Shown in pieces: positions 1,773 to 20,715 of a stretch of 32,751 bases of DNA. Within the stretch, counting starts at the first letter, position 1. The number at the start of each line of letters is the position of its first letter. The position numbers were made by a program, and so were the translations under genes. Under the pieces are notes generated by a model. That model worked only from the letters and a program-made list of their open reading frames with translations, was not told the DNA's origin and made no database searches. Source of the stretch: a virus; IMG/VR virus record IMGVR_UViG_3300042924_001040, positions 1 through 32,751 of that record. One strand, given 5' to 3'.

Positions 1773-1802
1773 ATTTTATTGCACATCAAGTGGCTGTGTC
1801 AA
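1773..1802 (-). promoter_or_regulatory. Sigma70-like promoter before the GIY-YIG gene
   Basis: On the minus strand TTGACA (1797-1802), an 18-nt spacer and TAAAAT (1773-1778). The -35 lies in the last codons of the SGNH gene and the -10 in the gap, with the late motif just downstream, suggesting expression both early and late. Confidence 0.5.
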
Positions 1803-2541
1803 GTATTCCCCGTTCATCAATGAAGTTAATTAATAATTGAGCCCAAAACTTATGGTATTCTTCTGGATAGTGCATGGACCATCTTGAATCATATCTTAAA
1901 TTTTTCCAATCAGGATGATGAGTCGCTATTCCCCAATAAGAATAATTTGCATAACTTTTAAAAGATTCTTCTTGGTTATAAATTACTCTTTCGGTATCAT
2001 GATGACCAAAATAATTTTTTTTATTAATTAGTTGCCAATTTCCTTCATACCAATGAGTGCTTGTATGAAAAACATATGGTATACTGTATTGATCACATAT
2101 TGATTGTATTGTAAAAATTTGAGATAAAGATTTAAAATTTAAAAATTTGTCGGAGTTTGTTTCTATATAATTTTTATAAGGTCCAATAAAATCGGAATCA
2201 ATTAATAATTCTTTTTTAGTATTTTTGTCTTGTAATAAGTGTGAAGAAGTACAATGATGAAGTTTTCCTGGCAATTTAATATAAGTTCTTGAAGCCTCAC
2301 AAAAATTACAAAGAACAAAAACTTCTTGATTTTTCATCAAAGCATTTTGAATTCTTATCATAAATTGTCTGATCATCCAATCATTGCTGCCACCACAAGC
2401 AGAATAGTTTTCATAATCAAACCCATAATGTTTAGCTATGTGTGCAGGATAAGCCCTATCATGACACTCAGATGAATACTGTTCATCTATTTCAGCACCT
2501 CCTGTGTGACTATCACCAAAAGCAAGTAAAATTTTAGTCAT
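1786..2541 (-). CDS. SGNH/GDSL-type hydrolase-like protein
   Basis: A 251-residue protein with the SGNH nucleophile block AFGDSHTGG at residues 7-15 (Ser11 nucleophile, in the GDSH form), block II YSACGGSND (47-54; Gly and Asn for the oxyanion hole), and a C-terminal SRWSMHYPEEYHKFW stretch where the catalytic Asp/His would lie. SGNH enzymes add or remove acyl groups on sugars and lipids, or act as glycan O-acyl hydrolases. The ATG overlaps the stop of the carbamoyltransferase (ATGA), so the two are coupled and probably act on one substrate. A second SGNH-like gene (18956-19819) lies in the other accessory operon. The substrate is unknown. Confidence 0.7.
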   Translation of the reverse strand: MTKILLAFGDSHTGGAEIDEQYSSECHDRAYPAHIAKHYGFDYENYSACGGSNDWMIRQFMIRIQNALMKNQEVFVLCNFCEASRTYIKLPGKLHHCTSSHLLQDKNTKKELLIDSDFIGPYKNYIETNSDKFLNFKSLSQIFTIQSICDQYSIPYVFHTSTHWYEGNWQLINKKNYFGHHDTERVIYNQEESFKSYANYSYWGIATHHPDWKNLRYDSRWSMHYPEEYHKFWAQLLINFIDERGILDTAT

Positions 2542-3962
2542 GAAAACACCTTAACTCCGTAAGTCTCTTCCCATTCCTTACAATCTTTCTCATCATTTAC
2601 CATTGGTTTTCCTTTAACATTCAAACTGGTATTCAGTAACATAGGACAACCAGTTTTCTCGTTCCACAATTTCAAAAGATCATAGAGTTCTGCGTTTTGA
2701 TGTCTATTAATAGTTTGAACTCTGCTTGTCTTATCTATATGAACAATTGCAGGAAACTTTTTAGAGTATCTACATTTCACCGCATATTGCATATATGGTG
2801 AAGAACTTGTAGGCATTCTAAAGTACTGATGAACATATTCTTCCATAATCACAGGAGCGAATGGTCTAAACTGTTGTCTTTGTTTTATACGGTTGACCAT
2901 TGATTTAATCTTTTGATCTCTAGGATCAGCAAACAAACTTCGATTACCTAATGCTCTAGGACCAAACTCTGCACGACCTCTTGCAACTCCACAGAGACCA
3001 TGATCCATCAAGTGATTAACAATCTCTTCGTTTGATGCAACTGGTTTTATATGATAACCAAGATATGGACCATGCCAATCAATATGTTTCTTCTTATGTG
3101 CAAGTACAGCACCAATCGCAGATCCATTGTCTCCAGGTGCAGGCATAATCCACACATTATCAAAGTAATAATATGCAATTGGATTTGCAACACAGTTCAA
3201 TGCACATCCACCCATCAAGACCAAGTTCTTACTATCAACAATATTAGATGCTCTCTGTAAAATATCTCTAAATGTTGTTTCGTAGATACTTTGAGTTGCG
3301 GCAGCAATATCAAAAGTATTCTTAATATCTGGTCTCCAATCCTTACAACCTTTATGTAAGTTTTTATTAAATGTTGCCGTTCTCCATCCTATAAAATCAT
3401 CATAGATTGCATCCTCATAACGTCTCTTATCACCGTAAGCAGACATGCCCATGAGGATATATTCTTCTTCATTTGGTTTCAATCCACACCTTTGGGTCAT
3501 TGCAGAGTACCAAAGTCCGATGCTGTGCGGATATCTACGTTGAAATTTTAGTTTTAGGTTACTACCTTTCGCTTCCCAGATAGTAAGTGTTTGGAATTCA
3601 CCTATAGCGTCAATAACCACCACACAACATTCATCAAACTTGCTGGTGAAATAACCAGCACAAGCATGAGTATAATGGTGATCATAATACTTGATTGGAG
3701 CATCAACATACTTCTTGACGTTTTGGATCCATCCTTGACCCGCAAGAAGTTGTCTAAGTGTTTTCTTATACGGGTTCTCATACCAACAGACCAGTTCTGG
3801 TTTTCCAAACTTTAATGCATATTCAATTATACCATCATTTAATTGGTGATCATTCTTGACACCACTAAACCTCTCACTTTCACTAGCGAAAATGAGAGTG
3901 TCATTCATGAATACAGAAAGTGCAGCATTATGACTTTCGGAAGATATTCCCCAGGTAATCAC
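2538..3962 (-). CDS. Carbamoyltransferase (NodU/CmcH/TobZ family)
   Basis: A 474-residue protein carrying the whole set of family landmarks: N-terminal GISSESHNAALSV, the metal-binding YYDHHYTHACAGYF, MGMSAYG, the GGCALNCVANP and PGDNGSAIGA loops of the Kae1-like domain, then GRAEFGPRALGNRS and FRPFAPVIMEEYV of the YrdC-like carbamoyladenylate domain, and LLNTSLNVKGKPM near the end. These enzymes transfer a carbamoyl group from carbamoyl phosphate to hydroxyls of sugars, antibiotics or capsule units. Translation starts at GTG (3960-3962), which overlaps the TGA of the 34-residue peptide (GTGA), and its own stop overlaps the SGNH start. In a phage it may modify a surface glycan or DNA-linked group (inference). 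Confidence 0.9.
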   Translation of the reverse strand: MITWGISSESHNAALSVFMNDTLIFASESERFSGVKNDHQLNDGIIEYALKFGKPELVCWYENPYKKTLRQLLAGQGWIQNVKKYVDAPIKYYDHHYTHACAGYFTSKFDECCVVVIDAIGEFQTLTIWEAKGSNLKLKFQRRYPHSIGLWYSAMTQRCGLKPNEEEYILMGMSAYGDKRRYEDAIYDDFIGWRTATFNKNLHKGCKDWRPDIKNTFDIAAATQSIYETTFRDILQRASNIVDSKNLVLMGGCALNCVANPIAYYYFDNVWIMPAPGDNGSAIGAVLAHKKKHIDWHGPYLGYHIKPVASNEEIVNHLMDHGLCGVARGRAEFGPRALGNRSLFADPRDQKIKSMVNRIKQRQQFRPFAPVIMEEYVHQYFRMPTSSSPYMQYAVKCRYSKKFPAIVHIDKTSRVQTINRHQNAELYDLLKLWNEKTGCPMLLNTSLNVKGKPMVNDEKDCKEWEETYGVKVFS

Positions 3963-4063
3963 TTGTAAATAAACGGATCTCTTTTTTGAAGTTTTTTAAG
4001 TCTTTTAGTAAAATCTCTTTCTTTTTTCCAGTCAGAAATAAGATTCCAAAGTTTTCTAATCAT
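3959..4063 (-). CDS. 34-residue DPFIYK micropeptide (copy 1)
   Basis: An open frame of 34 codons from ATG (4061-4063) to TGA (3959-3961), missed by length cut-offs. It begins MIRKLWNLISDWKKERD, is strongly basic and amphipathic, and ends KLQKRDPFIYK. Its stop overlaps the GTG start of the carbamoyltransferase, so it looks like the coupled first gene of that operon. A second 34-codon frame at 19828-19932, at the head of the other accessory operon, has the same length and the same DPFIYK end although the rest differs, which is good evidence that both are translated. A GATAAATA late motif lies at 4090-4097. Function unknown. Confidence 0.7.
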   Translation of the reverse strand: MIRKLWNLISDWKKERDFTKRLKKLQKRDPFIYK

Positions 4064-8762: not shown

Positions 8763-11426
8763 ATGGAAAACGAAATCAAAAAAGAATACGATCATCAAAT
8801 TGGATTAGGTATCGAGTATCCAACGGATCCAAATGCCAAAAAATTATATGCAGTTGGTTGTTATTCCTCAGAAGATTGGCAATATATCCATGAACTTTTG
8901 GTTCAAGATGGTACTTTAGAAGACAATATTCCTCATGAATGTTGCGATTGTGCAGACTTAAAAGAACATAGTGAAACTAGGGCTGTTTATCTATTGACAG
9001 ACCAAGAAGCAAATGAACTACTCAAACATCCAAGAGTAGAATATGTTCATGAAAATTATGAAAGTTATCCTTGCAAGTACAAACCAGATCCAGAAGAACT
9101 ACATGCGGGATATATAAAAAAAAATCGTTATAATACTGCAACAAGACAATATAGAAACTGGAGTGATAATAACCAACTTCCCGCAAGTCCTGGAGCAACA
9201 GAATTAAACAGAAGTGGATATCAACTCCTAAGATGCGTTAATAAATCCGATTCGTGGTATACGGGCATATCTACAGGATCAAATCAAATATTAACCAATG
9301 TAATTCCACAATATGGTGATGGAACAGATATTGATGTCATAGTTGGTGATGAAGGATGTTGGTTTGGTCATGTAGAATTTCAAACTAATGCAACAGGAAC
9401 TGGTCCAAGAGATTATAAAGGAAGAAATGCATTAGCGGTTGGATTTTCTACTTTAGCAACTTCTGCTACAAACGGGACATGTGATCTTTTAGATCTTGTT
9501 TTAGATGCTCCTTATTGGATTGATCCAGCATGGTTTGAAGCTGTGCCAGCTTCTAGATTAACATTACGGTGGGATGGAACTAGAGTTCCAGTAGAAAGTG
9601 TTGCTAGAACTTGGTGGTCAAACTCATCGCAGAGATCTGTAGGGTTTTCTACAATAGGTACGGTTACTGTAACATCCGCATACACGAGAGCTCGTTGTAA
9701 TGGTTCTTCTTCTGCTAGACCAACTATTACTACAACTCATGGTACTCAGTGTACAGCAAACGCTGTTGGCCGGACTCAAGGATGGGCATATAATGCAAAC
9801 AAATGGTCAGTAAATGCTTATGGAACTGATGGTACAGATTTTGAACCATATTTCACCATGATGAAATTGTTTCATCAAGCAAAAAGAATCAATCCAAGAT
9901 ATGGAAATAAAAATCCAACAATAAGTAGTAATAGTTGGGGATATAGATCAACATCTCATAGAACTACTGGATGGTATTTTTATCGTGGTCAAGGTATAGG
10001 AACCAGTTATACTATAAGTACATTGCCAGGATTCATGAATTATGTTGGAGTTTATGGTGATGGTAATAGAATGAAGGGTGAACATCTCCCAAACTCTGTA
10101 TTAACAGCAGGAAAAGAGATGATTGATGCCGGAGTTATTTTTATTGCTGCAGCAGGGAACTCCAACCAAAAACAAGTAAGTCAAACTCACCCAGATTTCA
10201 ATAATTATTGGAGTACTGTTGGAAGTGGAGCAACACTGGGAGAATCTACACATTCGGAATTTGGTGTTACTGCATATAATACGACTAACAGAAGAGGATA
10301 CCCACAACAATTGGGTATGTATACTGATGGTGGAGGTAATCTAATTTATCCTGTTATCAATATTGGAGCTCTTGATGATGCATTTAATCTAACTGGCAAA
10401 GAATGGAAAGTCAATTATAGTGATATGGGAAATGAAATTGATTGTTATGCACCAGCAGATGGAACTCTAAGTGCAACTAATCAAGTAAACCAACCAAGAC
10501 CTGATACTTATACTGGATCAGTGATTCCAAGTGATAGTGGACTCACTGGAATTGCCAGTGTCAGTGCAGAACTCAGTGGAACTAGTGGTTTCCGATTACT
10601 ATTAAATACGGGGAAAAGAATTACGACAAGTTCTGGTATTGGTACTGTTGTCGATTTAGAATTAAATTTATTGGGTGCTGTAGGATTAGCATCCACTGCA
10701 ACAACTCCAACTAATGGAACTAATGATGATGGATTTTGGACCTTAACTTTACCATTTACTATACAATTTGCTGGACTCAGTACAAACATCGTTTATCCAG
10801 GAACAAATACATACATTACTTTTGGTGGAGGATCAACTGCATTCAATGGATTAAGTTTTTCTAACCCAGCATTCAGAAAAATTATGATGTCTTGTGCAGA
10901 TAATTCTTGTCAAAGAATTTATTATGGTACAGAAGGTTCTTCTCCAAATAGAACATATAGAATTAGATGGGAAGGGACCAATAGTACTGGGGGAACACTT
11001 GGTTCTCCTACTATGGTTTATGAAGCAACTTTTTATGAAGCAAGTCCAAGTCAAATTGATATTCATTTTGGGGCTAATGCTAGAGTTTCTAATAGTGTAT
11101 TAACCTCATATGATGAAGCTTTTAGTGGCACAAGTTCCGCATGTCCAGTAGCAACGGGATTGATTGCAACTAAGTTACAATACAACCGTACTTGGACTTG
11201 GCAAGATGTGAGAACTTGGTTAAGGAACAGTGTTGGAACTGCAGATACATCTCAATTTTTTACTGGAGTAGAATCAACCAGTGCAAATGATGTAAACTGG
11301 GCAAATGTAAATAGTTTAGAAGGTGGAGATCCCATTGTTATTTGGGACGCATTAACTGGCAATGAACCATTTCAAGGAACATTAAGTATAAGTAATGTGT
11401 CTTTTAGGGGATTTCTCACAAAATAA
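8763..11426 (+). CDS. Subtilisin-like serine protease fused to adhesin-like domains
   Basis: An 887-residue protein with the S8 peptidase triad. Asp is in DVIVGDEGCWFGH (about residue 196), His326 is in TTHGTQCTANAVG, Asn466 of the oxyanion hole is in FIAAAGNSN, and Ser791 is in AFSGTSSACPVATG. Residues ~70-97 (VYLLTDQEANELLKHPRVEY) look like an inhibitor-I9-type propeptide. A ~75-residue insert follows the Asp block, and ~200 residues (about 585-785) are inserted before the Ser, containing DDGFWTLTLPFTIQF and RTYRIRWEG, a beta-rich domain of the kind found in phage fibre proteins. It lies between the fibre gene and secreted proteins, so a virion protease that processes fibres or cuts host surface protein is likely (inference). 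No strong ribosome site is visible. Confidence 0.8.
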   Translation: MENEIKKEYDHQIGLGIEYPTDPNAKKLYAVGCYSSEDWQYIHELLVQDGTLEDNIPHECCDCADLKEHSETRAVYLLTDQEANELLKHPRVEYVHENYESYPCKYKPDPEELHAGYIKKNRYNTATRQYRNWSDNNQLPASPGATELNRSGYQLLRCVNKSDSWYTGISTGSNQILTNVIPQYGDGTDIDVIVGDEGCWFGHVEFQTNATGTGPRDYKGRNALAVGFSTLATSATNGTCDLLDLVLDAPYWIDPAWFEAVPASRLTLRWDGTRVPVESVARTWWSNSSQRSVGFSTIGTVTVTSAYTRARCNGSSSARPTITTTHGTQCTANAVGRTQGWAYNANKWSVNAYGTDGTDFEPYFTMMKLFHQAKRINPRYGNKNPTISSNSWGYRSTSHRTTGWYFYRGQGIGTSYTISTLPGFMNYVGVYGDGNRMKGEHLPNSVLTAGKEMIDAGVIFIAAAGNSNQKQVSQTHPDFNNYWSTVGSGATLGESTHSEFGVTAYNTTNRRGYPQQLGMYTDGGGNLIYPVINIGALDDAFNLTGKEWKVNYSDMGNEIDCYAPADGTLSATNQVNQPRPDTYTGSVIPSDSGLTGIASVSAELSGTSGFRLLLNTGKRITTSSGIGTVVDLELNLLGAVGLASTATTPTNGTNDDGFWTLTLPFTIQFAGLSTNIVYPGTNTYITFGGGSTAFNGLSFSNPAFRKIMMSCADNSCQRIYYGTEGSSPNRTYRIRWEGTNSTGGTLGSPTMVYEATFYEASPSQIDIHFGANARVSNSVLTSYDEAFSGTSSACPVATGLIATKLQYNRTWTWQDVRTWLRNSVGTADTSQFFTGVESTSANDVNWANVNSLEGGDPIVIWDALTGNEPFQGTLSISNVSFRGFLTK

Positions 11427-11467: not shown

Positions 11468-11929
11468 ATGAAAAGATTATTACTCGTCTTTTCGTTATTC
11501 TTAATCAATCCTGTTAGTGCTGCTGAAATTACATCAAAAATTACTGATTCCGTTCAATTGGGTGTACAGGGCGCAGCGGTTCAATCAACAAGAATTGGAG
11601 CATCTTATTCTGCTTCAGGAACAAATATTCAAGCAACTACATTCGGTGGCGTAAATGGTGCCGGAAGTTACAATATTAATACTCCAGGTCAAGCATTCAG
11701 TTTCTCAGAAACTTTCAATGCTGCTGATACACCAGTCACCACTCAGTCGGTCAGTGGTGGAGTTATTGCTTCTCCCAACCTTTATGGGGATAGTGTTACT
11801 CAGTTAGCAGGAGATAAAGGATCTCTCGCTGGTACATTATCGCCTACTGGTGTTCCTACTGTAACTGCTGGTGGTCCTGGAACTACTGCAACAGCTCAAA
11901 GAACAGTTGAGTTAAGCGTATTCAAATGA
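11468..11929 (+). CDS. Secreted protein, paralogue A of a tandem pair
   Basis: A 153-residue protein with a clear Sec signal peptide (MKRLLLVFSLFLINPVSA, cleavage near residue 19). The mature part is Gly/Ser/Thr-rich and beta-like, with YSASGTNI, YNINTPGQAFSFSETF and a terminal VELSVFK. The next gene repeats this layout (YTVTGTNI, NYSIMNQGAPFQFSETY, ISVFTQ), so the two are diverged tandem duplicates. They overlap by 4 nt (ATGA). Export from a phage-infected cell, or a periplasmic assembly role, is implied; the biochemical function is unknown. Confidence 0.7.
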   Translation: MKRLLLVFSLFLINPVSAAEITSKITDSVQLGVQGAAVQSTRIGASYSASGTNIQATTFGGVNGAGSYNINTPGQAFSFSETFNAADTPVTTQSVSGGVIASPNLYGDSVTQLAGDKGSLAGTLSPTGVPTVTAGGPGTTATAQRTVELSVFK

Positions 11930-12285
11930 GACATATCCTAGCGGGACTTCTCCTGCTAGGGTTTTCTTGTCCTGCCCTAGCGGAAAGTGTTGTACCTAAT
12001 TTTACTAGGGGTACAATCAACGCGACAACCGAATCAACTACAAAAGTTATAGAAACAATTCGCCAAGTTGAATATACAACTGGCACATCATACACTGTGA
12101 CTGGAACTAATATTAACATTCCTGGCACTCCTCAACAAGGAGCAAATTACAGTATTATGAATCAAGGTGCCCCTTTCCAGTTTAGTGAGACTTATCTCGG
12201 ACCTGGAGTGGCTAAAGAAACATGGATAGATCGAAGCACAGAAACACAATCAACAACTACATCTATATCTGTCTTTACGCAATAG
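11926..12285 (+). CDS. Secreted protein, paralogue B of a tandem pair
   Basis: A 119-residue protein with signal peptide MRHILAGLLLLGFSCPALA. The mature domain is Thr-rich and shares GTNI, a central Phe-x-Phe-Ser-Glu-Thr and an SVF ending with the preceding gene. It starts by ATGA overlap with that gene. Its last 64 nt overlap the longest reading of the next gene. Function unknown. Confidence 0.7.
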   Translation: MRHILAGLLLLGFSCPALAESVVPNFTRGTINATTESTTKVIETIRQVEYTTGTSYTVTGTNINIPGTPQQGANYSIMNQGAPFQFSETYLGPGVAKETWIDRSTETQSTTTSISVFTQ

Positions 12286-12791
12286 GAGTATTATGTCATG
12301 GTGCGGCTTATTCTCAATCTGCTCCTAGTAATACTAATATCGCTGGCCCTTCTGCTTCCGCTACAGGTAATGTTACTAACCAAGCTGTCCAAGTCTTACA
12401 AGGACCGTATGCAGTCAATACCTACGGCGGAGGAGTTAGTTGCCAAGGACCAACCATGAGTTTTTCTCCCTTTGTATTGGGGAGTATGAATGGCAGTCAA
12501 GACCCATCAACATTTCAATCACATAATGGTAACGCTGGTGTAAGTATGGGTTTCAACTTTCCTTTAGATGGAGGACTAACCGAACTCTGTAAGGAAAGAG
12601 CCCGTTCTGAAATCAAACGACAAAATGCAGAAGCAGACAAAGCAAGACTTGATTTTGAATTAGTCAGACTATTAAAGTGTGGCGAAGCAATCAAATCTGG
12701 TATTACATTTCACCCAGAAAGTCCATACTACAGAATCTGTGCCGATATAGTTGTGAGGTATCCAAATGGATCCAATACCGCCAATAAATAA
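12222..12791 (+). CDS. Secreted protein of unknown function, start uncertain
   Basis: A protein of up to 189 residues. Residues ~13-29 (YIYICLYAIGVLCHGAA) form a signal-peptide-like segment, followed by a Ser/Gly/Asn-rich part with VTNQAVQVLQGPYAVNTYGG and a C-terminal charged helix (ELCKERARSEIKRQNAEADK). The frame is well supported from about 12320 onward, but the only in-frame ATG (12222) lies inside the previous gene and lacks a good ribosome site. The good GGAG site at 12286 precedes ATGs in other frames. It overlaps the next gene by 26 nt. It is a likely phage structural or surface protein. Confidence 0.62.
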   Translation: MDRSKHRNTINNYIYICLYAIGVLCHGAAYSQSAPSNTNIAGPSASATGNVTNQAVQVLQGPYAVNTYGGGVSCQGPTMSFSPFVLGSMNGSQDPSTFQSHNGNAGVSMGFNFPLDGGLTELCKERARSEIKRQNAEADKARLDFELVRLLKCGEAIKSGITFHPESPYYRICADIVVRYPNGSNTANK

Positions 12792-13632
12792 TACCAATGG
12801 AATTGCCAACATACCAAATAATTCTAAGGTAATACCAAAAATTGGTATTGATGGTCCAAGTGTCATTTCAACAATAGAACAGCCAGTACTTCGTAGCGTA
12901 GAAGTTCCAATTGTTCGTGGAATGGCACTTCCCGTATTTGAAATGCCAGATACTTCCATTAAGTATCCAGTCATCAATGTTCCTACACAGGAAGAGTTTG
13001 ATGCTGCTGTGAGAGCGGATAAAGAAAAACAGGCACAAGAAGACGCAGCAAAAAATAGAGGACTTCCGGATTCAACCCCTCCACCTCAACTGCCTCAAGT
13101 TACTCAGACCCCCTCTGTCCAAGTTCCAGTTGCTGAGATACCAGCAGATAAACCTACTACTCCAACCTTTACTGTCGGTGGAATCGATATTAATTTACCT
13201 GATCCTTCTCTTGTTGCTACGGCTGGTGCTGTAGCAGTAGTTACCACTGCTGCTACTATAGCATCAACAACTGTTCTGAATGCCCTGAAAAACGCAGCAG
13301 AACCAATCATTAAGGAAGCAACTAAAAATAAATTTAAAATTAAAATTAAACAAGTCAAACCAGTTCTGCATTATGTTATGGCAGAAGGTGGACATATAGA
13401 TGTTTTTGAATATTCTGCAGAAGGAACTCGTTTAGTAGAACAAGTAACTAATGTAGAACAATACATTCGTGATCAAGTTGAAATCAATTCTCTCTATGAG
13501 ATTGATAATAAAATCATTATTGATGATGTTATCAAAGATAAGTTTACAAAAGAAGGCAAAGAAAGATTTAAGTCTCTCTTTGCCCCTGCTAAAAAAATTG
13601 CTAAGAAATTATCAGCTAGATTATCCTTCTGA
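12766..13632 (+). CDS. Structural-type protein with hydrophobic segment
   Basis: A 288-residue protein. The N-terminal half is rich in Pro and Val (MDPIPPINNTNG, a PPPQLPQ stretch near residue 106). A hydrophobic Ala/Val/Thr segment follows at about 150-175 (TAGAVAVVTTAATIASTTVL), then a basic C-terminal region with KNKFKIKIKQVK and KKIAKKLSARL. The layout suggests a membrane-crossing or membrane-associated protein. It closes the plus-strand block; its end overlaps the convergent 49-residue gene by 12 nt. Family not recognised with certainty. Confidence 0.62.
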   Translation: MDPIPPINNTNGIANIPNNSKVIPKIGIDGPSVISTIEQPVLRSVEVPIVRGMALPVFEMPDTSIKYPVINVPTQEEFDAAVRADKEKQAQEDAAKNRGLPDSTPPPQLPQVTQTPSVQVPVAEIPADKPTTPTFTVGGIDINLPDPSLVATAGAVAVVTTAATIASTTVLNALKNAAEPIIKEATKNKFKIKIKQVKPVLHYVMAEGGHIDVFEYSAEGTRLVEQVTNVEQYIRDQVEINSLYEIDNKIIIDDVIKDKFTKEGKERFKSLFAPAKKIAKKLSARLSF

Positions 13633-13770
13633 AGTAAACTGTGAGATAATCCACCCAATAGCTATAACTGGAAGTTGAATAAAAATATTAGAAAGAATTT
13701 CTAGAAAGATATTGTCCTTTCTTTCTTCTTTGTGTTCCTTTTCCTTTTTATCCGAGATTGTTTGCGTCAT
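13621..13770 (-). CDS. 49-residue membrane peptide at the end of the radical SAM operon
   Basis: A 50-codon frame from ATG (13768-13770) to TAA (13621-13623). The head MTQTISDKKEKEHKEERKD is highly charged; residues ~21-42 (FLEILSNIFIQLPVIAIGWI) form one membrane helix. It starts two bases after the radical SAM stop (TAAAAATG), so translation is probably coupled. Its 3' end overlaps the convergent plus-strand gene by 12 nt, with no room for a terminator. No known family; presence in the operon is suggestive of a membrane role. Confidence 0.6.
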   Translation of the reverse strand: MTQTISDKKEKEHKEERKDNIFLEILSNIFIQLPVIAIGWIISQFTSEG

Positions 13771-13772
13771 TT

Positions 13773-15017
13773 TTATAAAGTTTTAGGTTTAGTCTTAATG
13801 ACATTCCAGATCCTTTGAAACTCTGGAAATGTTTGAATAGTACTTTCATTTCGTAATTTATCAAACTTTCGCATTGATCTCAAGAAATCTGGGATCAAAT
13901 GTTGTTCCTGATACAAATCAATATATTTTATTAGACTTTCATAGAAGATTACTGATCTACTGGACTTATTAGGAATTAAAAAATTATCTATATGATCTCT
14001 TATGTTTGCTTTTGCAGCTTCTTTTGTCTGTTTATCCAAAATCCAAACTGACATTTCTCTTGGATTTTGCATAAAATTTAGAAAGAAGAAATCGATGTCT
14101 TTCATCAATCCACTAGTATAAAGATATTGGTGAAGTTTAACAACTTCAAAAATATTTAATGCTTGAACTGTACAATCAAAGTGTAATTGGTGAGTCTCTT
14201 CTTTGTCTTTAAATCTTTCTCTAAATTGTTGTGCATGAGAAACAAATCTATCCCATTTAAATCCTTTTCTAATTAATTCCCCTCTCGCACCAATACCATC
14301 AACGCTGATGTGAACTTGCAGATCTTCGTTGAATTGATCCCACATATCAAAGATATGTCTGCCTTTATAAACAAGATTACTAAAATTACTATTGTATGCC
14401 AAACTAACCTTATTATTTCTACCAAGTTCAATTAGTTTATCAAGTATTTTCCAATGTTCGTCTATAATTAAAGACTCACCTCCAGAAAAATATAAGTGAT
14501 TAACCATTCCGAGATATTGTTCGACTTCTTCATACGTTTTTTCAGAAGCATTCCATCTCCCAGAAATTTTTCCATTCTGTTCTAACTCAAAACTGGAACT
14601 TGAAGTCCAACTACACATTCTACATTTGAAATTGCATTTATTACTTAATTTCAAATCCCACCAAACGAAAGTAGGTTGACTTACTGTATAATCATCATTC
14701 GTTCCATATATTAATTTTTTATATTGTGAAAATAAATCACCAATGAAATCTTCTCTTAATGAACTTTTTCCAGCTGCTTGATTGTTATAACATACCTGAC
14801 AATGTTCGCTAGGTACATCATTTAACATATTTTCTCGAAGTTTTCTTATTGGTTCATCGTTCCAAATTTCCCATAAAGGTTTTTCCTTAATGTCACCATA
14901 AGTGTATTCAGAGACACAACATGGTTTTACTTCTCCATCCTGTCGAATATCTAAAGCTAACCAAGGTGCAACACAAAAAATTTTTCCGTTTACATTGACT
15001 TTATTTTTATTAATCAT
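13773..15017 (-). CDS. Radical SAM protein, twitch/SPASM type (paralogue 2)
   Basis: A 414-residue protein. Cys128, Cys132 and Cys135 in SNKCNFKCRMC form the CxxxCxxC site for the radical SAM 4Fe-4S cluster, and YFSGGES (~176-182) is the SAM-binding GGE motif. Ahead of this core are the SPASM-like cysteines CVAPW (15), PCC (33-34) and HCQVC (73, 76), normally found after the core, probably ligating an auxiliary cluster. It is paralogous to the gene just upstream and overlaps it by 8 nt. Such enzymes modify peptides, nucleotides or small molecules by radical chemistry. The substrate is unknown. Confidence 0.85.
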   Translation of the reverse strand: MINKNKVNVNGKIFCVAPWLALDIRQDGEVKPCCVSEYTYGDIKEKPLWEIWNDEPIRKLRENMLNDVPSEHCQVCYNNQAAGKSSLREDFIGDLFSQYKKLIYGTNDDYTVSQPTFVWWDLKLSNKCNFKCRMCSWTSSSSFELEQNGKISGRWNASEKTYEEVEQYLGMVNHLYFSGGESLIIDEHWKILDKLIELGRNNKVSLAYNSNFSNLVYKGRHIFDMWDQFNEDLQVHISVDGIGARGELIRKGFKWDRFVSHAQQFRERFKDKEETHQLHFDCTVQALNIFEVVKLHQYLYTSGLMKDIDFFFLNFMQNPREMSVWILDKQTKEAAKANIRDHIDNFLIPNKSSRSVIFYESLIKYIDLYQEQHLIPDFLRSMRKFDKLRNESTIQTFPEFQRIWNVIKTKPKTL

Positions 15018-16347
15018 CTCCTAAAATCCCCTCTAACTCAGGAAAAACTTCTAAAGAATTTTCATTTCTTATACAATCAAGTGCAGACATATAAGATTTA
15101 AAATACGGAACAAGATCTTTTCTTTCTTCACCGGACAAAAGTTTGAGAACTGACATGTATTGTTTAATTGATTCTTTAGCTTTTGCAGGCACGAGATAAT
15201 TTTCTATATGATATTTAATTTTTTGAGCCAATAAACGTCTAGATTCAAGATCATGAATTAAAACTGACATGTAATCGGGATTGTGCAATATGCACAAAGA
15301 AAAATCATCCCAACTATTAATGATACCTCTCATATAAAGTTCTTTATGGGCATCCATAGTATGGAAACAATTTATGGCTTGAAAGACATAGTTAATCTTT
15401 ACGTTTGTATGGGGGAACTTACTTCTAAATTGTTTGAAATTATCTAGGAACTTTTGCCAATCGAATCCTTTTCGAATTAATTCTCCCTTCTTACCAGTAC
15501 CATCAAAACTTACAGACAAATATAGATTTGGAAACTTTTTCCATAGTTCAAGAACATTATCATCCTTGTACTTTAAGGTACTAAAATTAGTATTATATGA
15601 TAATCTGACAGATGTATTTCTATTTTTTTCAATTAACTTGCGTAGAATTTTATAATGATGGTCTGTGATTAAAGGTTCTCCGCCGGCGAAGTAAACTTCT
15701 TCTACAATATCATACAACGGTTCAATATCTTGGTGAACCATATCTACATCAATTTTTGGGTATTCTCCTTCTATATTAAATTCCTTCCGCATTTCACGTT
15801 CCCAAGCACTACTGTATCCGGGACTGCACATTCTGCATTTAAAATTACAGACATTATTTAATCTAAAATCCCAATAGACAAGATTAAATCTTTCAAAGGT
15901 TCCATCTTCTTTTGTTTCTGAAACATACTTATAATGTTCTGCATAAGTCTGATTCATACTGCATCGTAAAGAACCATGACCTATTTCTTCTTCTTTGTAA
16001 CATGATGTGCAATAACTAGATTCTTTTCCCTCCATCATGTTTTTACGAAGTTCTCTCATTTTTTCGTTGTTCCAAATCTCTTTAAGAGATTCATTCATTA
16101 GAGAACCCATTTTAAAATCTCTAGGAGTACCAGCACATTCGGTAGCAACAATCTCCAAAGGATTTATTAATTGTTTATCATCTTCTTTTGTTTCATCAGT
16201 TGAATCAGTTGTTTCTTTTGTGTCCTCATCAATTCCCTCTGTTCCACATATAGGCATCATGCAACAGGGATAAACATCTCCGTTTGGTCCTATATTCATA
16301 TGAACCCAAGGAGCCATACAAAAAGTTTTACTGGATTTTATACTCAT
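15010..16347 (-). CDS. Radical SAM protein, twitch/SPASM type (paralogue 1)
   Basis: A 445-residue protein with core CNFKCRMC (Cys167, 171, 174), VYFAGGEPL (GGE motif) and N-terminal auxiliary cysteines at FCMAPW (10), PCC (28-29) and YCTSC (113, 116). Compared with its neighbour it has an extra acidic, Thr-rich loop (about 38-60, DTKETTDSTDETKEDD) between the first cysteine pairs. Two paralogous radical SAM enzymes in one operon usually work in sequence or as a pair; this is inference. It lies 43 nt after the DUF6356-like gene. Confidence 0.85.
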   Translation of the reverse strand: MSIKSSKTFCMAPWVHMNIGPNGDVYPCCMMPICGTEGIDEDTKETTDSTDETKEDDKQLINPLEIVATECAGTPRDFKMGSLMNESLKEIWNNEKMRELRKNMMEGKESSYCTSCYKEEEIGHGSLRCSMNQTYAEHYKYVSETKEDGTFERFNLVYWDFRLNNVCNFKCRMCSPGYSSAWEREMRKEFNIEGEYPKIDVDMVHQDIEPLYDIVEEVYFAGGEPLITDHHYKILRKLIEKNRNTSVRLSYNTNFSTLKYKDDNVLELWKKFPNLYLSVSFDGTGKKGELIRKGFDWQKFLDNFKQFRSKFPHTNVKINYVFQAINCFHTMDAHKELYMRGIINSWDDFSLCILHNPDYMSVLIHDLESRRLLAQKIKYHIENYLVPAKAKESIKQYMSVLKLLSGEERKDLVPYFKSYMSALDCIRNENSLEVFPELEGILGDD

Positions 16348-16390
16348 AACTAATTTTATTAATAAAGTTCAGATAGTATCATTATTCTAC

Positions 16391-16666
16391 TTATATATGC
16401 GATTGTTTGGCAATGTAATCTGCATATTCTTTATTTGGGTGATTAACCAATCTCTGGTGATAAAAATCTATGACCATTCTTGCTGCTGTGCCTGTGAATA
16501 AAGCCGGAACAATTCCATGAATCACACTGGAAATACCAACAAAGATCATTTTAAATCCAGCATAAGAAGCCCATAATAAATGACTTGTATAAGTTTCTTT
16601 ACTAGACTCCAAATGAATCAAACTTTTTTTTACTATGTTAAATTTAGTCATTATCTGTAAATGCAT
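16391..16666 (-). CDS. Small membrane protein, DUF6356-like
   Basis: A 91-residue protein (86 if the second Met, MTKFNIVKK at 16651, is the start; neither has a clear ribosome site). The sequence SSKETYTSHLLWASYAGFKM, followed by a hydrophobic stretch to about residue 64 and RMVIDFYHQRL, matches the layout of the DUF6356 family of small bacterial inner-membrane proteins as I recall it. It lies 12 nt after the AMP-ligase gene, inside the accessory operon. Function unknown. Confidence 0.6.
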   Translation of the reverse strand: MHLQIMTKFNIVKKSLIHLESSKETYTSHLLWASYAGFKMIFVGISSVIHGIVPALFTGTAARMVIDFYHQRLVNHPNKEYADYIAKQSHI

Positions 16667-16678
16667 TTTTTTAAGTTG

Positions 16679-18226
16679 TTATGGATCTAAGTCCAACCCT
16701 TCAAATTTTCTTAAATATTGTTCTTTATGTTCCAAAATAAATGTTGAAGGATTGGATTTTATCTCTACATGGGATCTAAAATAGTCTCGTAACAATTGAT
16801 CATCTATTTTAACTCCGGTAAAAAATAACTTAGGATCTAAAATTTCATATTTACTTATATGATGAACCAAACAAACATTTCCTATATTATTATTGATAAT
16901 CCTTATCAAAATATCTAAATTAGATTTTCCAGTTTCTTCAGAATTTCCTACTATAGAAGTTTTCCATATAGCTAAGTATATTTCATTTACTGCAGGATCG
17001 TATACAAATTTGGAATCTATGATAGGTTTAAATACTTTTAATATCTCATTGTAACTATTTACATCCACAACATGATCATTTATTCGTATTAAATCCGCTC
17101 TGCCATTATGATAAAATCCATCTGAATTAATTATGAATTGATCATTTGTGCAAACTTTTTGATTATAAATTGGAATATTTACTTCCAAAAGATTTCTTTC
17201 AGCAAAAGAAATTTTATAATAATCGTCTATTAAATTAAATTTGTTCTGAACAAAATTTTTATCACTTGCTTGATTTATGAATATTGGTCCACTAGTTTCC
17301 GAAGTTCCAAATAAACTTATAATATTTTTTATTTTGTTTTCTTTTACAAAAGATATCCATTCTTTTTTAATTGTAGATAGAGTGTAAATTGTTGTCTTTG
17401 ATGGAGGATTCTCAGGATCAATTCCAGACAAATATCCATCAATATCATAAGTATATGGAATCATAATGTGATCAAAAATGTTTTTATTTCTCATGAAATA
17501 TTTTTGATCATTGAAATCAGAACAATCTCCCCAATAATTGAATACATTTTTTACTTCTTTTGACATCAATGTTGGAATAAAATATGTAGCTGGACCGCTA
17601 CCATGACCCAAACATTTTTCATTTACGACATTTCCATAGAACATTTTAGAGTTTCTTTGACAAACATCAAACAAAAAATCATGACTATGTTCTATAATCT
17701 TTGGAGTTCCAGTAGTTCCACTGGATGTACATCTCATTGCAATTGATTTTGGATCAATTTTTATATCATAATTTATATTTTCATTGTACTGATGTTTTTT
17801 TATATTTGTAAAATAAATCGTGTTTAAACAATGTCTAGTAAGAACAGCAAACTTACTCCTAGGATGATTTTTTGCAATCACATCATCCTCACAAATAAAA
17901 TAATGTATGGGAGATAATAGTTTAGTTTTAGTAGCAGATTCTGGTGAGATTACTGTAATGTTGTAATCAATTATTGAAATGGAAAGTCCTAATTCTAGAC
18001 AAGCAAAAACACTGGCTACTTTACGTAAACAAGTTCCGTAATAACCAATTAAAACAGTTTCTCCTAATTTTATTTCGTAGTTAGAAAGAAAATAATTCTT
18101 TATTTGATCTACTAACCTTTCAAATTCTTTATAAGAATACTTTATAAGTTTTCCTTCTTCAGTAATATCGTAAAATGTTATATCTTTATTGATAACCGTT
18201 CTGTCTATTACCTTCGATTTATCCAT
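16679..18226 (-). CDS. AMP-forming acyl/aryl ligase-like protein (ANL superfamily)
   Basis: A 515-residue protein with the ATP-binding signature CTSSGTTGTPK (residues 166-176) and LFGTSETSGPIF for the A5 region, then DGFYHNGRADLIRIN where the YxTGD...GRxDDxIK region lies. The TGD is replaced by SDG and the C-terminal A10-type lysine region is not clear, so activity might be limited to adenylation or be altered. The reaction is expected to be ATP-driven activation of a carboxylate as acyl-AMP, then transfer to CoA, a carrier or another acceptor. It follows the sulfotransferase by 29 nt, with a CATAAATA motif in the gap. Confidence 0.8.
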   Translation of the reverse strand: MDKSKVIDRTVINKDITFYDITEEGKLIKYSYKEFERLVDQIKNYFLSNYEIKLGETVLIGYYGTCLRKVASVFACLELGLSISIIDYNITVISPESATKTKLLSPIHYFICEDDVIAKNHPRSKFAVLTRHCLNTIYFTNIKKHQYNENINYDIKIDPKSIAMRCTSSGTTGTPKIIEHSHDFLFDVCQRNSKMFYGNVVNEKCLGHGSGPATYFIPTLMSKEVKNVFNYWGDCSDFNDQKYFMRNKNIFDHIMIPYTYDIDGYLSGIDPENPPSKTTIYTLSTIKKEWISFVKENKIKNIISLFGTSETSGPIFINQASDKNFVQNKFNLIDDYYKISFAERNLLEVNIPIYNQKVCTNDQFIINSDGFYHNGRADLIRINDHVVDVNSYNEILKVFKPIIDSKFVYDPAVNEIYLAIWKTSIVGNSEETGKSNLDILIRIINNNIGNVCLVHHISKYEILDPKLFFTGVKIDDQLLRDYFRSHVEIKSNPSTFILEHKEQYLRKFEGLDLDP

Positions 18227-18244
18227 AATTTTATTTCATCAAAA

Positions 18245-18252
18245 TATTTATG
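18245..18252 (-). promoter_or_regulatory. Late-promoter-like motif CATAAATA
   Basis: The reverse strand reads CATAAATA 19 nt upstream of the AMP-ligase start, in the short gap after the sulfotransferase. It may give an internal late start in the operon. Confidence 0.4.
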
Positions 18253-18255
18253 ATT

Positions 18256-18972
18256 TTAGGAAGAATGATTATATAGATAAAAATCCATTTCATACAAATC
18301 CAAGAAGTGTTTATTTTTCATACAATACTCATTTAGAATATCTTGACAGAATTTGTAATTTTTTAATTTAAATTCAAATTTTTCAGATGTATTATCACGA
18401 GTTATTGTTATCTTTCTTTTTAAAATATCTGATATTTTTTCATTTAAATTTTCATCAAGCTTTAAAAAAGTTATATCAAGATCATATTTAAAACAAAATC
18501 TCATCCTCGAAACTTGTGGTTCCGTGTGTCCATCAAATATAAATTTATTATTTTTCAATTCCATTAAGAACTTATTACGAGATCCTTTCTTATCACCATC
18601 GAAATCAACTCCTTGATGGTGATAGATATTTAAAAATTCATTTATTCCGGATATCCATCTTTCTTTTGGGTCTCTAGTAACAACAAAATACTTATATCCA
18701 CTCCTATATTTTTCTGGAATGTCTATTAAAAATGGACAATCCAATTGTAAAGGAATTTTTATTGGAGTAAAATTTAAAGAATTTATAATCGAGGTCGAAG
18801 CATTTTTAGCTATCGATACATAGATTATTTTTTCCTCTTCCAATTCAAGTAAAGGTTCTACCATCATCCCAGGACGCAGATCCAATTCTTCTTTTGGATA
18901 ATATTGATAAGATATGGAATTGAATACGGAAGTATTATATTTTTCCCAATCTAGGTTATAAATGTCTTTCAC
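18256..18972 (-). CDS. Sulfotransferase-like protein (PAPS-dependent family)
   Basis: A 238-residue protein with the two PAPS-binding landmarks. IIYVSIAKNASTSIINSL (49-66) corresponds to the 5'-phosphosulfate loop that follows strand one in sulfotransferases, and YFVVTRDPKERWISGIN (95-111) to the 3'-phosphate region with Arg100 and Ser108. A C-terminal KYDLDITFLKLDENL fits the family. The reaction would move sulfate from PAPS to a hydroxyl on a glycan, lipid or protein. Its first 17 nt overlap the SGNH gene. Few phages carry sulfotransferases, so this is notable; the acceptor is unknown. Confidence 0.72.
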   Translation of the reverse strand: MKDIYNLDWEKYNTSVFNSISYQYYPKEELDLRPGMMVEPLLELEEEKIIYVSIAKNASTSIINSLNFTPIKIPLQLDCPFLIDIPEKYRSGYKYFVVTRDPKERWISGINEFLNIYHHQGVDFDGDKKGSRNKFLMELKNNKFIFDGHTEPQVSRMRFCFKYDLDITFLKLDENLNEKISDILKRKITITRDNTSEKFEFKLKNYKFCQDILNEYCMKNKHFLDLYEMDFYLYNHSS

Positions 18973-19819
18973 TTTTTAAATGGTTGTAAATTTTTTCAGC
19001 GAACAGTTTATTGGAATGTCTTCCATAATGAGCTAAATCTCTTCCATAATCTTTAGGTATTGGAGTATATAACTCACATCCTAATAACTTTGATGTTGTT
19101 GGAAATGTCGAAAATTCATATAATGGACACTTATCCTCCCATAAATTTTTAATCAACTCAACATTTACCATATTAAATGGAATCAAATGATCTAAAACTT
19201 TTGGTGCATTAACAGGTTTTAAAACAGATCCAGTTGATTCTTCAACTGCTGCAACTGCTTCTGGTGGATGTTCATAAATGTCTTCAAACTTTGTATTCAT
19301 CAAAACAAAATCTTTTTGATAGATAAGATGTCTAGTAATTCCTGTCCAACAATAGATAACTAATTTTGGTACTCCATATTTTTTATATAACATTAAAGAG
19401 TTATGAAGACAGAATTGTATTGAAGATCCTCCAGCGCCAAGATTTATAACTGGAATTCCAGTCTTCTGTTCTAAAAAGTAAGGGATAGTATGACTATCAT
19501 CATTTCCAGTTCCAAATACATGAGAACAACCAAACATTACGATTGAATTTTTCCAATCTATGTCTTCAAATTCTTTTGTTCTATATCCATAAGTATTCAC
19601 AGTGTACTTGATTTTATTATGTCGATAGTACCAGTCTTCAGGTTGTCTTTTTAAATTCTTTTTATAAAACTCATAAGTATCTATTCCATAGAAATCCCAA
19701 GACCCTACAACGGAAGGTCTCTGGATTACTTCAGGTTCTCCGTAATTATGCACAAATGTGCTTGGAAAAGGAATAAGATCATTATTCCTTATAGAATCAA
19801 TTGTGTTCAAATTAATCAT
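18956..19819 (-). CDS. SGNH hydrolase-like protein, second copy
   Basis: A 287-residue protein with block I IVMFGCSHVFGTG (Ser99 nucleophile), block II VINLGAGGSSIQ (125-135), block III YCWTGITR, and a C-terminal GRDLAHYGRHSN where Asp and His of the triad are expected. The N-terminal 90 residues (with NTYGYRTKEFE) form an extension common in marine SGNH proteins. It starts 8 nt after a 34-residue peptide, and heads a run of SGNH, sulfotransferase and ligase genes. Likely role: acyl or acetyl group handling on a glycan (inference). Confidence 0.7.
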   Translation of the reverse strand: MINLNTIDSIRNNDLIPFPSTFVHNYGEPEVIQRPSVVGSWDFYGIDTYEFYKKNLKRQPEDWYYRHNKIKYTVNTYGYRTKEFEDIDWKNSIVMFGCSHVFGTGNDDSHTIPYFLEQKTGIPVINLGAGGSSIQFCLHNSLMLYKKYGVPKLVIYCWTGITRHLIYQKDFVLMNTKFEDIYEHPPEAVAAVEESTGSVLKPVNAPKVLDHLIPFNMVNVELIKNLWEDKCPLYEFSTFPTTSKLLGCELYTPIPKDYGRDLAHYGRHSNKLFAEKIYNHLKSERHL

Positions 19820-19827
19820 AATATAAT

Positions 19828-19932
19828 TTATTTGTATATAAAAGGATCTTCTCTTTTAAGTTCTTTAATGAGTTTTTTAGTTTCAAAATGTTGGATTATT
19901 TTATTATAAGTTTTTTTAAAAAAATCCAACAT
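19828..19932 (-). CDS. 34-residue DPFIYK micropeptide (copy 2)
   Basis: A 34-codon frame from ATG (19930-19932) to TAA (19828-19830), beginning MLDFFKKTYNKIIQHFE and ending KELKREDPFIYK. Length, basic amphipathic character and the last six residues match copy 1 at 3959-4063; the rest is diverged (only scattered Lys and Leu are shared), so the DPFIYK tail is evidently conserved. It lies 8 nt upstream of the SGNH gene. A CATAAATA late motif is at 19961. The start codon sits in a strong hairpin (see repeat entry). No known family. Confidence 0.7.
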   Translation of the reverse strand: MLDFFKKTYNKIIQHFETKKLIKELKREDPFIYK

Positions 19933-19968: not shown

Positions 19969-20715
19969 TTAATACTTTCCCTCTACACAATAATCTGATT
20001 TTTTATTTGGTGTGTATTCTTTATATCCTTCCTGTGCTTTCATCCATCCACAACCGATTAACCATTCCATCGTCATTGGTGTTGGACGAACCTGTTCCCA
20101 CAATGGACCTTTTGCACACATTTCTAGTTTCTGTGCTGTCACATTTGATTGTTCTTCTGCCCAATTTGCATCAGCTTCCCAAGGAACAGCACGACTTTGG
20201 CCCATAGATTCATAAGCAAGTCGTGTAGTTTTCATTACCCAAGATGGTATTTCTGCGTCCTGGTGAACTTGTGCCATGAAAGAGGTTTTCAGTCCACCAC
20301 CCATACAATCTTGAACAACGTGCCATCCTTCATGTCTCATTGTTCCTAGAAACTCTCTAGGGTCTTTGAGTAATTCTTCATTTACAAAGAACCGATTGTA
20401 TTCTGGTTTATATAATCCTACTGTTCTTGGAGTAAAATATCTTGATGGTGCAACATAAACTGGAACGCCGAGTTTATCAAGACCGACAAGAATTGATTTT
20501 ATCTCTTCTCTAAAAGTATCAAACTCTTTTCCAGAAATTATGGAAGATGTTGATGTAAGTTGTTCGACTCCTTCTGTGCATTCTAGCAGTATCATACAAC
20601 CCATCGCTGCAAGGCTGTATGCTGGAACTGTTGGTTGAGTCTTTATGACTTTTTCTGCATTAACTGGAAGAGTAAAGGTTAATAATAACCCAAGTGTTGT
20701 AATGACTTTTTTCAT
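19969..20715 (-). CDS. Secreted HEXXH zinc metalloprotease-like protein
   Basis: A 248-residue protein with signal peptide MKKVITTLGLLLTFTLPVNA. The catalytic motif TMRHEGWHVVQDC puts HEGWH at residues 128-132 (two His and Glu), with PWEADANWAE (179-187) as a candidate for the third zinc ligand in a following helix. Several Cys (40, 46, 137 and near the C-terminus) could form disulfides after export. Its start overlaps the stop of the 66-residue gene by 4 nt. Proposed role: extracellular or periplasmic proteolysis during infection. The fold beyond the motif is unassigned. Confidence 0.62.
   Translation of the reverse strand: MKKVITTLGLLLTFTLPVNAEKVIKTQPTVPAYSLAAMGCMILLECTEGVEQLTSTSSIISGKEFDTFREEIKSILVGLDKLGVPVYVAPSRYFTPRTVGLYKPEYNRFFVNEELLKDPREFLGTMRHEGWHVVQDCMGGGLKTSFMAQVHQDAEIPSWVMKTTRLAYESMGQSRAVPWEADANWAEEQSNVTAQKLEMCAKGPLWEQVRPTPMTMEWLIGCGWMKAQEGYKEYTPNKKSDYCVEGKY

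Follow-up and report, generated by a model that had tools for sequence, protein, structure and literature searches.

The virus record IMGVR_UViG_3300042924_001040, analysed here as one stretch of 32,751 bases (the window), contains a mobile, exchangeable and modular cassette of seven genes at positions 13773–19932. These genes encode a micropeptide (PEP), an SGNH-type protein (SGNH-A), a sulfotransferase-like protein (SULF), an AMP-forming ligase (LIG), a small DUF6356 protein and two paralogous radical S-adenosylmethionine enzymes (rSAM1 and rSAM2). A linked module in the same window carries a second PEP copy, an O-carbamoyltransferase (CARB) and another SGNH protein (SGNH-B) (Table 1). The cassette is best read as one variant of a larger virus-specific system that combines N-terminal-twitch rSAM enzymes, O-carbamoyltransferase, SGNH proteins and a micropeptide ending in DPFIYK. 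Judged from its gene content, the window is probably an incomplete fragment of a marine T4-like phage genome, the calls behind this label being ribonucleotide reductase, a SegE-type endonuclease, tail lysozyme, DUF6433 and DUF7201.

Conserved gene order and exchange of tailoring genes

The original prediction described eight tightly packed minus-strand open reading frames (ORFs) as one accessory operon. All eight ORFs were confirmed, as were the overlaps of 17 nt between SGNH-A and SULF and of 8 nt between rSAM1 and rSAM2, and both overlaps recur in a related locus, L006. The eighth member, a 49-residue peptide regarded as tail-anchored, proved not to belong to the operon. The contig of L006 and L012 holds the same operon elsewhere, and there the two genes that flank it in the window, the 19969-type gene and the one for the 49-residue peptide, are separated by only some 100 bases; at 20639–20770 of L012 the peptide adjoins a 12766–13632-type gene with no cassette between them. 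Because the flanking genes nearly adjoin at this empty site, the peptide is a backbone gene.

Viral contigs were scanned with LIG and rSAM1 and their gene neighbourhoods were mapped. Nine other viral contigs were found to carry LIG-DUF6356-rSAM1-rSAM2 as a block with unchanged gene order; two of them are near-identical to the window and the remainder share about 69–83% ligase identity with it. The block occupies at least three genomic settings: the site shared by the window, L007 and L008, a position after a gene for 2,456 residues in L006, and a different region in L009, L010, L014 and L051. PEP, SGNH and SULF stand ahead of the block in both the window and L006. Failure of the genes to co-occur elsewhere had been named as the result that would speak against an operon; they do co-occur, and since the order recurs in nine contigs and at least three settings, the gene string did not arise by chance.

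The suspected tie between the cassette and the carbamoyltransferase-SGNH module is real. L009 has the order PEP-CARB-SGNH-SULF-LIG-DUF6356-rSAM1-rSAM2, and its in-operon CARB is 94% identical to the separate CARB of the window, therefore the module and the cassette belong together. The GC content of the cassette is 0.29 versus 0.384 elsewhere, with no 2-kb stretch outside it falling below 0.338, and the cassette is also low in GC in L006 and L007. At the same site in L268 and L269, SULF, f94, f46, f47 and two f48 genes (gene families numbered f), several of them sulfotransferase-like, precede rSAM1-rSAM2 and replace LIG and DUF6356. Since these loci keep the rSAM pair with different tailoring genes, the pair is the constant part and the other genes are exchangeable. 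Tandem f48 genes with a TGPQGSGNH loop also stand ahead of an rSAM pair at L026:8728–9992 and in homologues, and may represent another sulfotransferase-like family; f48 gave only chance-level matches in the PDB, and one tested member had no Pfam or PHROG match.

Association of the micropeptide with carbamoyltransferase and rSAM genes

In loci picked solely by rSAM or ligase similarity, the micropeptide was found within 3 kb upstream of 36 of 38 CARB genes, many with a 4-nt overlap. The gene next to the peptide was an rSAM in only 2 of 138 cases, and mostly CARB or SGNH adjoins it. The association was also examined at genome level in 20 peptide-bearing virus records, most of them picked for having no rSAM near the peptide. 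All 20 encode a carbamoyltransferase, and 16 carry the rSAM family NF033640 over its cut-off, with about twenty copies in one record. In contrast, nine cultured or complete phages that had been retrieved through their carbamoyltransferase, with the peptide disregarded, all lack the peptide and have no rSAM-family match over cut-off (Fisher p = 7e-5, relatedness not corrected for). In the single-cell virus AG-345-D19, the genes for peptide, CARB and rSAM follow one another.

A short form of CARB (320–340 residues) was observed with the micropeptide between primase-like and helicase-like genes (L100:7007–7969, L114:8060–9082, L103, L117 and L127), often together with an 81-residue DUF2061-like protein.

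Sequence and occurrence of the micropeptide

An iterated hidden Markov model (HMM) placed the PEP family at 46 positions in rSAM loci. The peptides are mostly 28–50 residues long, and in 40 distinct sequences the D, P, F and Y of the C-terminal tail are invariant and the I nearly so, with the tail at a fixed distance from the stop. All four proline codons, three isoleucine codons and many arginine and leucine codons are in use; because varied synonymous codons encode an invariant tail, selection acts on PEP at the protein level. Amphipathicity is seen in the first 15 residues, where 77% of 116 sequences score at least one standard deviation above shuffles, but the middle part does no better than shuffles. 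The peptide is basic, with a mean net charge of +8. No significant match to the peptide was found in Pfam or PHROGs.

A DNA-pattern scan of all viral contigs gave at least 119 stretches, nearly all of those listed being PEP-type peptides. Applied to cellular genomes (257 billion bases), the pattern matched 25 times; five of these matches are true members, and each of the five lies in a marine assembly that has the viral rSAM family as well. Judged by these scans, the micropeptide family appears to be essentially virus-only. In ten large virus contigs (139–374 kb), exactly one or two DPFIY codings were present per contig, and none in the reversed control. A tblastn search of cultured phages with PEP is unreliable as a negative, since the low-complexity filter may mask the query, so whole records were searched directly with the pattern; the sole match, in HTVC008M, is antisense and has no ORF.

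The tail also occurs on larger proteins. DPFIY is the C-terminus of an rSAM enzyme at L046:9986–11248, L058:9995–11260 and L071:6310–7575, where no separate peptide was found, and DPFIYK ends a KbaZ-like aldolase (L189:2958–4040) and an S-adenosylmethionine (AdoMet) decarboxylase (L129:6053–6541). DPFIYK was also considered as a possible sliding-clamp-binding tail, but this reading was dropped, as the polymerase C-termini in related large viruses are TFQSLFEF or TFDSLFSWED. The second micropeptide copy of the window was absent from the original prediction. Of all elements, the 34-residue PEP is both the most unusual and the most conserved, a point that the prediction also missed.

Enzymes of the cassette and the linked module

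The enzyme types that had been predicted all held, those of the rSAM, ligase and DUF6356 proteins by domain match and those of SULF and SGNH-A by motifs only. rSAM1 and rSAM2 match NF033640 (N_Twi_rSAM) with E values of 2.3e-107 and 3.9e-96; the two window proteins score 322.6 and 359.5 bits against a curated cut-off of 170, and both SPASM and Radical_SAM Pfam matches were obtained too. The CX3CX2C motif that supplies three cysteines for the SAM cluster (C167, C171, C174) and four N-terminal cysteines for one auxiliary cluster (C10, C28, C113, C116) are at least 99% conserved among 325 paralogues. rSAM2 directly follows rSAM1 in related loci, and the two form separate tree clades with nearly identical locus sets (support 0.98 for the rSAM2 clade and 0.16 for the rSAM1 clade). 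A viperin-like defence function (pVip) was rejected, the weak pVip matches reaching only 45.9 bits against a cut-off of 180.

LIG matches AMP-binding PF00501 over cut-off (E 1.8e-11), and the motifs SSGTTGTPK, FG(T/S)SETSG, GRxDLIRIN and C-terminal FTGxKxDxQLLR are conserved in six homologues, leaving the P-loop, A5, A8 and C-terminal lysine intact. The DUF6356 protein matches PF19883 (E 2.7e-14, 53.5 bits versus a cut-off of 24.4); a homologue directly follows a carbamoyltransferase in phage C48C1, a complete Kyanoviridae genome (L090:16473–16667). SULF reached Sulfotransfer_2 only below cut-off (E 0.014, 16.0 bits versus 22), while its 5'-phosphosulfate loop KNASTS and 3'-phosphate motif RDPxxRxxS, both binding 3'-phosphoadenosine-5'-phosphosulfate (PAPS), are invariant in relatives. 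SGNH-A had no Pfam match; its S99, G128, N140, D261 and H264, which make up the S, G, N and H residues and the DxxH motif, are invariant in 10 relatives. Sequence searches of the PDB gave no match for rSAM1, LIG or SULF. CARB matches PF16861 (E 2e-52) and PF02543 (E 3.7e-36), and its PDB sequence matches are NovN-type decarbamoylnovobiocin carbamoyltransferase, GdmN and TobZ, so that by sequence it resembles sugar and polyketide O-carbamoyltransferases. An SGNH-B-type gene follows CARB in L006, L017 and L022.

The wider viral rSAM family

Distant relatives of rSAM1 form tandem arrays of 4–8 paralogues (median six) in 50 other loci. A NodU/TobZ-like carbamoyltransferase is present in 33 and an SGNH protein in 22 of these array loci, together with APS-kinase-like genes in 13 and UDP-sugar dehydrogenases in 9. 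Loci with an rSAM pair carry NDP-sugar epimerases (8/21), 2-oxoglutarate (2OG) oxygenases (8/21) and DegT aminotransferases (4/21). Among 289 cellular genomes of one class, a single one had the viral rSAM family over cut-off, and this was a marine assembly fetched for its peptide; none of 14 well-known control genomes had it. On these counts the family is mostly viral as sampled. In the Vibrio phages KVP40 and K566, rSAM relatives occur and the peptide is lacking, therefore the rSAMs are able to exist without it. About 20 N-terminal-twitch rSAM matches were seen in one virus genome, the 342-kb record of L095 (G298).

Possible function of the cassette

We tentatively read the cassette of this marine T4-like phage as an exchangeable module for glycan-type tailoring, in which the peptide serves as a docking tag. 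From what is known of their families, the enzymes would make or modify a sugar-like molecule. Carbons would be oxidised or inverted by the rSAM pair, and LIG would turn a carboxylate into an activated acyl-AMP; the SGNH protein would transfer acyl groups or take them off, and sulfate would be attached by SULF and carbamate by CARB. The basic amphipathic N-terminus of the micropeptide may hold a surface or a partner, and its invariant C-terminal tail may recruit the enzymes. As target, a glycan carried by the virion (tail fibre) or displayed at the surface of the infected cell would be the most likely, and the outcome would be a surface chemistry that changes fast. The original prediction proposed a route, perhaps at the membrane, that makes or decorates a small molecule, glycan or peptide; the recurrence of the genes as a block agrees with it, whereas a membrane location was not established, nor was one fixed pathway, as the tailoring genes swap.

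The sugar-enzyme genes that recur near the rSAMs, the likeness of CARB to sugar and polyketide carbamoyltransferases and the place of rSAM cassettes in pelagimyophage host-recognition islands (PMC7029224) speak for the tailoring module. Its sequence is compatible with the virion, the host surface or a small molecule as target. Several points weigh against this reading. Pfam found no glycosyltransferase beside the cassette of the window, and the commonest array neighbours (f1, f3 and f5) have no family match. The models predicted from shallow alignments were unusable (predicted local distance difference test score, pLDDT, 32 for SULF and 38 for LIG). The putative docking role of the peptide is drawn from its position and from three kinds of fusion, of which the AdoMet decarboxylase has no obvious glycan link.

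It is also quite conceivable, in broader terms, that the virus-only DPFIYK micropeptide organises a large undescribed marine-virus system, whether as a docking tag or as the precursor of a peptide-derived cofactor. The second role taken by itself is unlikely: the micropeptide would be the precursor of a ribosomally synthesised and post-translationally modified peptide (RiPP), like PqqA or MftA, and the rSAMs with the carbamoyl-, sulfo- and acyltransferases would turn the invariant Ile-Tyr into a viral cofactor or signal. A short peptide with an invariant core, as such a precursor would have, is indeed present in the cluster, with the length range and the constant distance of D-P-F-I-Y-x from the stop given above, and peptide and rSAMs are associated at genome level. 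MftA is a 31-residue precursor in which an rSAM enzyme rebuilds the C-terminal Val-Tyr; the resulting product is glycosylated later (PMC7491314). However, the neighbour of the viral peptide is mostly CARB or SGNH and not an rSAM, six residues offer little room for a median of six different rSAMs, and 4 of the 20 peptide-bearing records have no viral rSAM over cut-off, although these may be fragments. Because the tail is fused to an rSAM, a KbaZ-like aldolase and AdoMet decarboxylase, a portable docking tail is favoured over a pure precursor.

A variant of the favoured tailoring module, in which the products act on host lipopolysaccharide or O-chain and not on the virion and so block adsorption of rival phages, is likewise improbable in its specific form. 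Such a role was proposed for pelagimyophage glycosyltransferases (PMC7029224), and the modules come with small membrane-type proteins (DUF6356, DUF2061-like); several pair loci, however, have probable tail-fibre genes and 2OG oxygenases as neighbours, which fit virion modification equally well.

Nucleic-acid modification is very unlikely. CARB would carbamoylate 5-hydroxymethylcytosine and the other enzymes would hypermodify phage DNA against restriction, and a viral carbamoyltransferase of the same two Pfam families does make 5-carbamoyloxymethylcytosine (PMC8670742); the short CARB and peptide between primase-like and helicase-like genes in L100 and L114 would also agree. In contrast, no thymidylate synthase or dCMP hydroxymethylase was found among the scanned ORFs of the window (itself a fragment), CARB also stands beside glycosyltransferases in unmodified contigs of that study, the cassette neighbours include sugar enzymes, and the DPFIYK tail is unlike the polymerase C-termini. 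A chance string of unrelated imported genes, to which the different superfamilies and the variation of the gene set among phages might point, is hardly credible given that order and overlaps are conserved in other contigs and three settings, that the LIG-DUF6356-rSAM1-rSAM2 case is refuted and that swaps occur around a constant rSAM pair.

Comparison with known systems

The Nod-factor enzymes NodU/NolO, NodH and NodL place the same decorations (carbamate, sulfate and acyl) on one sugar backbone. Here, genes for a chitin-oligomer backbone are absent, and rSAM enzymes and an AMP ligase are present instead. BtrN, a twitch-domain rSAM dehydrogenase, combines an rSAM core with a single four-cysteine auxiliary cluster, as in the present enzymes. 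The NF033640 proteins differ in that their auxiliary domain is N-terminal, and no PDB entry matched the rSAM1 query by sequence. Mycofactocin (MftA/MftC) and pyrroloquinoline quinone (PQQ) biosynthesis share with the viral system auxiliary-cluster rSAMs, sugar enzymes and a small peptide whose invariant C-terminus has Tyr as its last or nearly last residue, whereas the viral peptide has an adjoining carbamoyltransferase, a penultimate Tyr and a tail fused to other enzymes.

The 5-hydroxymethylcytosine carbamoyltransferase (PMC8670742) is also viral and has PF02543 and PF16861, but here no dCMP hydroxymethylase partner was seen and the neighbours are sugar enzymes. Radical SAM cassettes in pelagimyophage host-recognition islands have already been reported in general terms, alongside glycosyltransferases (PMC7029224). 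As far as the accessible portion of that report goes, the two cases have in common T4-like marine phages, a variable island and rSAM genes gained or lost as cassettes; unlike here, that portion names no ligase, sulfotransferase, rSAM pair, carbamoyltransferase link or micropeptide. The original prediction did not recognise the combination as a phage pathway, and it is absent from the literature searched: the enzyme families are known singly, but a viral micropeptide paired with carbamoyltransferase and arrays of twitch rSAMs was not found there.

Marine T4-like phages devote several kilobases, and once about twenty genes, to an rSAM family that is almost absent from the sampled cellular genomes. 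The micropeptide provides a handle on this system, as a short conserved sequence present once or twice per genome that marks the system and predicts its partners. If a surface glycan is the product, the system matters for the way in which phages of abundant ocean bacteria alter or defend surfaces; if the product is peptide-derived, it would be an unusual example of such a pathway in a virus.

Other features of the window

Table 1. Genes of the cassette, the linked module and the adjoining backbone peptide
Feature	Description	Position	Strand	Basis
PEP	34-aa micropeptide MLDFFKKTYNKIIQHFETKKLIKELKREDPFIYK, cassette gene 1	19828..19932	-	iterated HMM; tail conservation
SGNH-A	SGNH-type hydrolase/acyltransferase-like, 287 aa	18956..19819	-	SGNH residues, no Pfam match
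SULF	sulfotransferase-like, 238 aa, GTG start, 17-nt overlap with preceding gene	18256..18972	-	PAPS motifs
LIG	ANL-superfamily AMP-forming ligase, 515 aa	16679..18226	-	PF00501 and motifs
DUF6356	small protein, 91 aa, probably membrane-bound	16391..16666	-	PF19883
rSAM1	N-terminal-twitch radical SAM enzyme, 445 aa	15010..16347	-	NF033640
rSAM2	rSAM1 paralogue, 414 aa, 8-nt overlap	13773..15017	-	NF033640
49-aa peptide	backbone, outside cassette	13621..13770	-	between 19969-type and 12766-type genes in L012
Second PEP	micropeptide copy MIRKLWNLISDWKKERDFTKRLKKLQKRDPFIYK, 4-nt overlap with CARB start	3959..4063	-	HMM family member
CARB	NodU/TobZ-like O-carbamoyltransferase, linked module	2538..3962	-	PF16861 and PF02543
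SGNH-B	downstream partner of CARB	1786..2541	-	weak Lipase_GDSL_2 and DUF6071 matches

The T4-type late promoter signal HATAAATA was not enriched in the window, with single matches just upstream of PEP and of LIG, and sigma-70-like promoter sites were no more frequent in the window than in shuffles. The ORF at 12222–12791 (+) overlaps its upstream neighbour (11926–12285) by 64 nt in another frame, an arrangement kept in L007 and L020. The phage also encodes a large subtilase-domain protein (8763–11426, +) and an autotransporter-domain protein (21420–23744, -).

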